From assembly GCA_027322215.1 (NCBI GenBank), contig DAHVRW010000009.1:1-35525 (forward strand): a stretch of 35,525 bases of DNA, written 5' to 3'. Under the pieces are notes generated by a model. It saw only the letters and a list, made by a program, of their open reading frames with translations. It had not been told where the DNA came from and did no database searches. The translations under genes and the position numbers were made by a program. This DNA comes from Marinimicrobium sp. (GTDB lineage Bacteria; Pseudomonadota; Gammaproteobacteria; Pseudomonadales; Cellvibrionaceae). Each line of letters begins with the position of its first letter. Within the stretch, counting starts at the first letter, position 1. Of the stretch, positions 5,037-10,175 are shown piece after piece.

Positions 5037-5221
5037 AGAAAAAACTCCAGAAATTCAATATTCAATGAACAACGCGCAGCGCTGTGGGAATCAAGAACCC
5101 GCGCAACATTTAAATCGGCGTAAAGTTTATGGCCAAGCCCTAAGCTTGTCATGGTCATTCTAGCCATAAACTGTGGTATTTTAGCCGTTTTTCCCCTCAC
5201 GTGTGTTTAAAGGAAAGGATT

Positions 5222-6241
5222 GTGAATCAGCCCCTGCCCAACCGGGTCCGGATTAGCTTTTTGCTGAGCGAGAATATGCTGGCAACCAGTGCCACCCTAC
5301 CCATGGAAATGCTATTAACGGCCGAGAGTGCCGGTGGCGTCGCGCGCCGCAGAGGCAGCGCTAAAACCCTAATTGAGCTGCGCACGACGGGCGTAGCTGG
5401 GGCTGCGGTCAACACCCGTGCGGGAATGAAGTGGACACCGGAACTGACGCTTGAAGAGGCGGAACAAAGCGACATCATCTACGTACCCGGCCTGTGGCGC
5501 AACCCCCGGCCCGTAGTACGTCGCCACCCCGAGGTATTACAGTGGTTACGCCGCCAACACGAAAACGGTGCACTAATCAGTGCCGTTGGCACCGGTGTGT
5601 GCTATCTGGCTGAGGCCGGCCTGCTGGACGGCAAAGCCGCCACTACCCATTGGCATTACTTTGATCAGTTCCATAAGGATTATCCGTCGGTGCAGCTCAA
5701 GCGCCAGTACTTCATTACCCAGGCAGGCACTCTTTATTGCGCCGCCAGCGTAAACTCCCTGGCGGATTTAACCGTGCACTTTATCCAGCGTCTCTACGAC
5801 AAGACCATAGCCAGCCATGTGGAGCGGCATTTCTCCCATGAGATTCGTCGTTCATATGAAAGTTCGGGCTACTTTGAGCAGGCTCGCAGCCGTCATCCCG
5901 ATGAGGACATTGTGCAGATCCAAATCTGGTTACAAGACAATTACTCAAGAAGTATTGTGCTCAGTGAGGTCGCTGGGCGTTTCGGGATGAGTGTGCGCAC
6001 GTTGAACCGGCGCTTCCGGGCCGCCACCGGCCAAACACCCTTGCAGTATTTGCAGGAAACCCGCATCAATCATGCCCGCGGCTTGCTAAAAACCAGCAAT
6101 CTTTCCATCAGTGAGATTGCGGATAAGGTCGGCTATCAGGACGTGGGCCATTTCAACGCTTTATTCAAAAAACAGTTAACCACCACACCGGCCCAATACC
6201 GGGCAACGGTGCGCGCCAAACTGTTCAGCGCCGATTATTGA
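5222..6241 (+). CDS. GlxA-like transcriptional regulator: N-terminal DJ-1/PfpI-like domain plus C-terminal AraC HTH
   Basis: RISFLLSENMLATSATLPMEMLLTAE...YVPGLWRNPRPVV...AVGTGVCYLAEAGLLDGKAATTHWHYFDQF...; AraC domain VAGRFGMSVRTLNRRFRAATGQTPLQYLQETRINHARGLLKTSNLSISEIADKVGYQDVGHFNALFKKQLTTTPAQYR. GTG start at 5222 preferred (AAGGA upstream) over GTG 5201. Confidence 0.9.
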   Translation: MNQPLPNRVRISFLLSENMLATSATLPMEMLLTAESAGGVARRRGSAKTLIELRTTGVAGAAVNTRAGMKWTPELTLEEAEQSDIIYVPGLWRNPRPVVRRHPEVLQWLRRQHENGALISAVGTGVCYLAEAGLLDGKAATTHWHYFDQFHKDYPSVQLKRQYFITQAGTLYCAASVNSLADLTVHFIQRLYDKTIASHVERHFSHEIRRSYESSGYFEQARSRHPDEDIVQIQIWLQDNYSRSIVLSEVAGRFGMSVRTLNRRFRAATGQTPLQYLQETRINHARGLLKTSNLSISEIADKVGYQDVGHFNALFKKQLTTTPAQYRATVRAKLFSADY

Positions 6242-6247
6242 CCGGAT

Positions 6248-6333
6248 AAAAAAAAGCGCTGGCCGGGGTTAAGTGGCCAACGCCAAAAGGAGAAAGAAAA
6301 GAACAAATTCAATGGGCCCGCCTGAGCGGGCCC
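6248..6333. terminator. Convergent terminator region (two hairpins) between the AraC-type gene and hsp20
   Basis: A8 tract 6248-6255 then GCGCTGGCC...GGCCAACGC (6256-6283; acts on the minus strand with a U tract); second hairpin GGGCCCGC-CTGA-GCGGGCCC at 6314-6333. Confidence 0.7.
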
Positions 6334-6340
6334 TTCAGGA

Positions 6341-6838
6341 TTATGCCACTGCCGTGTCTTTATCGGCGCGGGGCACTTGTTTAATATCGGCGGCCGCTCC
6401 GGCATCGCCCTGCTCCAAAGCTCCCTGAATCTCGATGGTCCGAGGCTTCATGGCTTCAGGTATTTCGCGCACCAAGTCCACGTGCAAGAGGCCATTTTCA
6501 AAAACGGCGCCCTTAACCTGGACGTAATCAGCCAATTGGAAACGACGCTCAAAGTTGCGCGCGGCGATTCCCTGGTACAGGTAGTTGCGCTTTTCGTCTT
6601 CCGCTTGCTTTTCAGCGGACACGGTTAGAGTGTTCTGGTTTACCTCGATACTCAGCTCTGAGCGGTCAAAGCCCGCAACGGCCATAGTAATCCGGTACTG
6701 GTCCTCCCCGGTTGACTCGATATTGTACGGGGGATAGCTGGGCTGCTGATCCGCGCGGCTCAGGCTGTCGAGTATGCTGGCCATACGGTCAAAACCGATG
6801 GCGGAACGATAAAGTGGTGTCAGATCAAATGTACGCAT
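6341..6838 (-). CDS. Small heat-shock protein, Hsp20/IbpA family
   Basis: MRTFDLTPLYRSAIGFDRMASILDSL...YPPYNIESTGEDQYRITMAVAGFDRSELSIEVNQNTLTVSAEKQ...YLYQGIAARNFERRFQLADYVQVKGAVFENGLLHVDLVREIPEAMKPRTIEI. Confidence 0.96.
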   Translation of the reverse strand: MRTFDLTPLYRSAIGFDRMASILDSLSRADQQPSYPPYNIESTGEDQYRITMAVAGFDRSELSIEVNQNTLTVSAEKQAEDEKRNYLYQGIAARNFERRFQLADYVQVKGAVFENGLLHVDLVREIPEAMKPRTIEIQGALEQGDAGAAADIKQVPRADKDTAVA

Positions 6839-6842
6839 GGTT

Positions 6843-6866
6843 TATATCCTCATGTTGAGCAATATA
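6843..6866 (-). promoter_or_regulatory. ROSE-like RNA thermometer hairpin sequestering the hsp20 Shine-Dalgarno
   Basis: mRNA 5'-UAUAUUGCUC-AACAU-GAGGAUAUA-3': nine pairs with one bulged G in the UUGCU anti-SD motif; AGGA lies 8 nt upstream of the hsp20 AUG. Confidence 0.75.
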
Positions 6867-6979
6867 GTGGCGACCCATCATTACGATCAGGTCATGTTGG
6901 TATTTGCCACAATACGAGGCGTCAGCATTGACTCCCCATCTTGTAGCCCGCACCCCTCCTAAGAGCGGGTACACTACTT

Positions 6980-7007
6980 ATATGGAGATAAAAAAAATAA
7001 TTTCAAG
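6980..7007 (-). promoter_or_regulatory. Sigma32 (RpoH)-type promoter for hsp20
   Basis: Minus strand CTTGAAA (7007-7001), 13-nt spacer, CTCCATAT (6987-6980); close to the consensus CTTGAAA-N(11-16)-CCCCATNT. Confidence 0.7.
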
Positions 7008-9625: not shown

Positions 9626-9702
9626 TGGTCGGAACGGCAGGATTTGAACCTGCGACCCCTACACCCCCAGTGTAGTGCGCTACCAAACTGCGCTACGCTC
9701 CG
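9626..9702 (-). tRNA. tRNA-Pro (anticodon GGG)
   Basis: Minus strand CGGAGCGTAGCGCAGTTTGGTAGCGCACTACACTGGGGGTGTAGGGGTCGCAGGTTCAAATCCTGCCGTTCCGACCA; 77 nt, cloverleaf arms, GGTTCAAATCC T-arm and encoded CCA; anticodon loop CTGGGGG. Confidence 0.95.
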
Positions 9703-9815: not shown

Positions 9816-10175
9816 TTAACGTGCTTTAAGCACTTCGAGCACCTGCTCCAACTCGGCTATCATCTGGCTGACCAGCTGACTGAACTGGCTGGCGTCTTGC
9901 TGCGCGCCCTCGCCTTCCATCTGCTGACGGGCGCCACCGATGGTAAAGCCCTGATCGTACAGCAAGGCGCGAATCTGACGGATGGTCAACACATCCTGGC
10001 GTTGATAATAGCGTCGGTTGCCGCGTCGTTTGACCGGTTTCAATTGGGGAAACTCTTGCTCCCAGTAACGCAGTACGTGGGGTTTCACCGCGCACAGCTC
10101 ACTTACCTCACCAATGGTGAAGTAGCGTTTGCCGGGAATAACCGGCAACTCATCGTTATGGCTTGGTTCCAGCAT
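9816..10175 (-). CDS. MerR-family transcriptional regulator (the type adjacent to ihfA)
   Basis: [65 protein letters not shown]; overlaps the ihfA 3' end by 20 nt. Confidence 0.93.

Follow-up and report, generated by a model that had tools for sequence, protein, structure and literature searches.

ROSE-like RNA thermometers combine an sHsp gene, a sigma32 promoter, two to four hairpins, and an imperfect pairing between U(U/C)GCU and the Shine-Dalgarno (SD) sequence in the 3' hairpin (PMC3669281). The Pseudomonas ibpA leaders, which are of a design like that of the locus described here, are proven thermometers in which melting affects the SD hairpin and spares the upstream one (PMC3669281). 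In ROSE-like elements, heat induction is reduced when the bulged G is deleted (PMC11342760). The E. coli IbpA protein binds its own 5' UTR and represses it via R93, with Y34 involved (PMC10474464).

We analyzed a stretch of 35,525 nucleotides (the window) from the MAG of a Marinimicrobium-like gammaproteobacterium, which consists of 310 contigs and is 86.8% complete; its nearest relative among the genomes compared, G001, belongs to the same genus. We are highly confident that the leader of the hsp20/ibpA gene in this window is a ROSE-like thermometer that governs the synthesis of IbpA; its response to temperature would correspond to that of the relatives in which such leaders have been tested.

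With the short ROSE-like ibpA thermometers of Pseudomonas (PMC3669281), the window shares the sHsp gene, the sigma32 promoter, the 3' hairpin pairing U(U/C)GCU with the SD sequence, an unpaired start codon, and a stable GC-rich upstream hairpin. However, the leader in the window is longer, with four hairpins spread over about 135 nt as opposed to two over about 62 nt in Pseudomonas. The Pseudomonas-like leaders L171-L173 keep the position of the bulge in the upstream hairpin, with a U where the window has a G. The E. coli ibpA ROSE element (RF01832, ROSE_2) has the sigma32 promoter in common with the window and contains three hairpins as read from its leader; both hairpins covered by the Rfam model bulge a G 3 bp below the loop, as in the window. 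The SD pairings differ (CUCGCUG/CAGGAG in E. coli, AUUGCUC/GAGGAU in the window), and the sequence of the window is too distant for a match to the Rfam model. Rhizobial ROSE (RF00435) shares the UUGCU/AGGA thermosensor with its bulged G, and its consensus 5' hairpin also bulges a G, but it is alphaproteobacterial and its model found no match in the window. The ROSE-like thermometer of Providencia stuartii oppF shares U(U/C)GCU with the bulged G, observed there in a crystal structure, but controls an ABC transporter gene (PMC11342760). Finally, the E. coli IbpA self-repression system (PMC10474464) has the gene product, the residues R93 and Y34, and an RNA thermometer leader in common with the window.

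The ibpA gene and its promoter

The locus comprises the following features:
6314 to 6333, minus strand: terminator-like hairpin directly 3' of hsp20 (consensus scan)
6341 to 6838, minus strand: hsp20/ibpA coding sequence, 165 aa (Pfam HSP20, E 2.8e-22)
6847 to 6850, minus strand: Shine-Dalgarno sequence AGGA (sequence; conserved)
6858 to 6862, minus strand: ROSE motif UUGCU, the anti-Shine-Dalgarno (sequence; conserved in relatives)
6843 to 6866, minus strand: hairpin IV, UAUAUU-G-CUC against GAG-GAUAUA, bulged G 6860 (covariance model match and fold)
6872 to 6893, minus strand: hairpin III, GACCU-G-AUC GUAAU GAU-GGGUC, bulged G 6888 (pairing probability 0.95 at 37 C)
6906 to 6947, minus strand: hairpin II, an extra hairpin without bulged G between I and III (minimum-energy fold)
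6950 to 6972, minus strand: hairpin I, GUACCC-G-CUC UUAG GAG-GGGUGC, bulged G 6966 (pairing probability 0.99 at 37 C)
6980 to 6987, minus strand: sigma32-type -10 element CTCCATAT (zero-mismatch consensus match)
7001 to 7007, minus strand: sigma32-type -35 element CTTGAAA (zero-mismatch consensus match)

The encoded protein is of the IbpA type, with an HSP20 domain and 56% identity to E. coli IbpA in the alignment, where R94 and Y35 of the window protein are the counterparts of the self-repression residues R93 and Y34. A separate intergenic region of 196 bp precedes the gene, which starts with an ATG at 6838 (minus strand); a co-directional epimerase gene lies further upstream. Terminator-like hairpins around hsp20 were not more numerous in the consensus scan than expected by chance for the region. 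A gene combining DJ-1/PfpI with an AraC-type regulator (5201-6241, plus strand) is convergent to hsp20, and elsewhere in the window tRNA-Pro(ggg) (9626-9702, minus strand) adjoins a MerR-family gene (9816-10175). The same genome carries a second HSP20 gene (L001, 139-579), which belongs to another class and lacks the R93 context of IbpA; neither a ROSE leader nor UUGCU was found before it.

The sequence CTTGAAA-N13-CTCCATAT at 7007-6980 (minus strand) agrees with the sigma32 consensus without a mismatch, as a consensus match alone. When up to two mismatches were allowed, it was the single site in the window, where 0.8 would be expected by chance. Sigma32-like sites (at least 10 of 13 positions) were present in 114 of 133 gammaproteobacterial leaders, compared to about 13 in shuffles. 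The earlier note had proposed a putative sigma32 promoter, which is borne out by the zero-mismatch match and by the similar sites in relatives. It had also derived a leader of about 135 nt from this promoter; we obtained the same length, with a transcription start that the promoter places at approximately 6972-6975.

Predicted leader fold and thermosensor hairpin

The minimum-energy fold of 150 nt comprising the leader and the start has a free energy of -50.6 kcal/mol (z -3.0) and contains four hairpins, which falls within the range of two to four for ROSE-like elements. The multi-hairpin ROSE layout claimed from the first reading of the sequence is thus recovered, with hairpins I and III backed by covariation. 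In hairpin I, 8 of the 9 pairs show changes on both sides among 32 leaders, and 96.5% of the cells are paired compared to 64% in shuffles, a percentage that is partly due to selection because these leaders were picked for folding in this way. Hairpin III shows compensatory changes, and its helix is 96% paired among 23 relatives; over the whole structure of hairpins III and IV, the same relatives yielded 35 compensatory cells, a number reached by none of 500 shuffles (0/500). The 5' hairpin had been drawn differently, as CCCGC...GCGGG. We rejected this version: its predicted probability is 0.0006 compared to 0.99 for GUACCC-G-CUC/GAG-GGGUGC, and the GCGGG partner is absent in L004, a locus of the same genus.

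A hairpin is also found at the position of hairpin II in L004, and another one in L005, while hairpin I is followed directly by hairpin III in L037, L034, and others; the extra hairpin II therefore makes the leader longer here. The 3' strand of hairpin I (6966-6950, minus strand) contains AGGAGGGG, a good SD-like sequence inside a stable stem; this strand mimics the real SD hairpin and recurs among relatives. In hairpin I of L034, L010, L011, and L038, GG lies opposite the G at the bulge, similar to the double G of ROSE-G (PMC12857270).

Directly 5' of the hsp20 start, the minus strand reads UAUAUUGCUCAACAUGAGGAUAUA (6866-6843), and the succession UAUAUUGCUC-AACAU-GAGGAUAUA that the earlier note had placed before the start codon was found at this position. 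In the predicted fold, the 3'-most hairpin pairs UUGCU imperfectly with AGGA and bulges G6860, in agreement with the single bulged G that had been postulated for this pairing; the predicted pairing probability of hairpin IV is about 0.9 at 37 C. All ROSE-like features that can be tested on sequence (as in PMC3669281) were present in the window.

We considered that the leader should function similarly to its tested relatives. Upon heat shock, sigma32 would transcribe the ibpA mRNA, as the promoter suggests. At low temperature, hairpin IV is predicted to keep AGGA paired with UUGCU, and its U-G and A-U pairs together with the bulged G are predicted to render it barely stable. Warming would open hairpin IV and free the ribosome site so that IbpA is made, by analogy with Pseudomonas and E. 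coli. Hairpins I and III would remain folded and may aid correct folding; their bulged-G shape is probably a structural or protein-recognition module. The predicted probability of AGGA being entirely open increases about 21-fold, from 1.5e-4 at 25 C to 3.2e-3 at 42 C. The predicted opening is gradual, as for any hairpin, and is consistent with a thermometer without being specific for one. An isolated 61-nt stretch around hairpin IV was not more stable than its shuffles (z +0.55).

Repeated bulged-G hairpins and IbpA

Hairpins I, III, and IV follow a common plan, consisting of an outer stem, one bulged G in the 5' strand, three base pairs (CUC/GAG or AUC/GAU), and a short loop; hairpin IV has 4 bp above the bulge in the minimum-energy fold. 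For a census of bulges, minimum-energy hairpins of at least 6 bp were considered, the last 34 nt with the thermosensor hairpin were left out, and flanking segments served as controls. A 5' bulged G located 2-4 bp below the loop was present in 95 of 186 gammaproteobacterial and 40 of 47 alphaproteobacterial upstream hairpins, compared to 32 of 1713 controls; owing to the relatedness among the leaders, neither these counts nor those that follow represent independent events. The ratio of 5' to 3' bulges was 121:5 in the gammaproteobacterial and 42:0 in the alphaproteobacterial set, against 217:198 in the controls, and when any base was allowed at the bulge, it was G in 152 of 168 and 44 of 47 upstream cases, respectively.

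A second covariance model, built from gammaproteobacterial 5' hairpins only, was used as a probe. Its best match in the 35.5-kb window was hairpin I, which had been part of the training set, and its second-best match was the thermosensor hairpin IV (6841-6868, E 0.08), which had not. In the alphaproteobacterial loci, none of which had been used for training, leaders accounted for all of the top six matches, of which two fell on the thermosensor hairpin; SD hairpins in gammaproteobacterial loci were also caught. The Rfam consensus structures RF01832 and RF00435 already display the bulged-G plan. A literature search, with most subscription journals outside its reach, found no paper remarking on the repetition of the bulged G.

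Statistically, the repetition of the bulged-G module in ROSE leaders is real, although its meaning is unproven. It suggests an operator-like motif, possibly with IbpA as its reader, and the module is similar in outline to a known analogue, the operator hairpin of the MS2 coat protein. In a speculative and rather doubtful extension, the alpha- and gammaproteobacterial ROSE leaders would be tandem arrays of one module, in which a single G bulges from a pyrimidine-rich 5' strand at 2-4 bp below a short loop, while the 3' strand is rich in purines and resembles an SD sequence. IbpA oligomers would read these arrays as an operator, the SD thermosensor would be the last copy, and melting and chaperone titration would act on one repeated fold.

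The strongest alternative to a thermometer goes in the same direction: the leader might be chiefly an operator at which IbpA oligomers bind the bulged-G hairpins and repress until misfolded proteins titrate IbpA, with melting being secondary. The recurrence of the bulged G in hairpins I, III, and IV and in the upstream hairpins of both proteobacterial classes favors this explanation, as does the conservation here of the residues of E. coli IbpA self-repression, R93 and Y34 (PMC10474464). In Pseudomonas, hairpin I is insensitive to heat (PMC3669281), and its bulge is therefore unnecessary for melting; melting does not explain why stable upstream hairpins retain the bulged G. However, the arginine corresponding to R93 was retained in all 20 homologues examined (20/20), with or without the ROSE motif in their leaders, and since it also occurs without the motif, it does not discriminate in favor of an operator. 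Moreover, when hairpin I of Pseudomonas is deleted, the remaining hairpin II suffices for heat induction (PMC3669281). We consider a predominant operator function possible but improbable.

Conservation among relatives and class assignment

To place the thermometer among its relatives, leaders were gathered from the family, the order, and the class, together with 29 alphaproteobacterial loci. U(U/C)GCU followed by AGG, at most 40 nt from the start, was found in 144 of 164 distinct homologue leaders. A genome-wide scan for UUGCU, AGGA, and ATG at rigid distances missed the window, where these distances are different, and returned a single unrelated site. From 23 relatives, with the window excluded, a covariance model was built for hairpins III and IV; it matched the window at 6836-6895 with 56.5 bits (E 5.8e-11, window search). 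In the whole-genome search with this model, the window locus was the sole match (E 4.2e-9), and no further copies of the element were found in its own genome. The model matched 40 of the 61 family genomes, and these matches abut the hsp20 start wherever the position of hsp20 is known.

The pairs of hairpin IV are nearly invariant among the 23 relatives, and because they change so little, the hairpin is supported by sequence conservation and not by covariation. Near-invariant positions whose pairing lacks proof from covariation would also be expected if the UUGCU/AGGA complementarity were a by-product of a sequence conserved for another role, for example in relation to the ribosome or the promoter, and no thermometer existed. 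This is very improbable: in relatives, hairpin IV varies at its outermost pair and in its loop but retains the anti-SD/SD pairing, there is strong covariation in the companion hairpins, and experimentally proven thermometers have the same design (PMC3669281). A fourU-type thermometer, which follows the same general principle of masking the SD sequence, is excluded for practical purposes because the strand opposite AGGA, AUUGCU, lacks four consecutive U.

The assignment of the leader to the ROSE type, made in the earlier note, is supported by the motif, the SD pairing, the sHsp gene, the sigma32 promoter, and the multi-hairpin leader. The Rfam ROSE/ROSE_2 search named there as a check was negative for the window: the models RF00435, RF01832, and RF02523 (ROSE, ROSE_2, and ROSE_3) gave no match in the window or the leader at either gathering or permissive thresholds. 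At the gathering threshold, the Rfam ROSE models also found no match among 20 related loci, and E. coli ibpA, the positive control, scored 100 bits with ROSE_2. Because the 20 relatives were missed as well and E. coli ibpA was recognized, the negative result for the window is attributed to the narrowness of the models.

These results extend the known ROSE class of thermometers to the Cellvibrionaceae and relatives, where annotation pipelines overlook the element because the Rfam models miss it. The repeated bulged-G hairpin provides a concrete candidate for the recognition site of IbpA in its own mRNA, and a candidate reason why ROSE leaders retain hairpins that do not melt.
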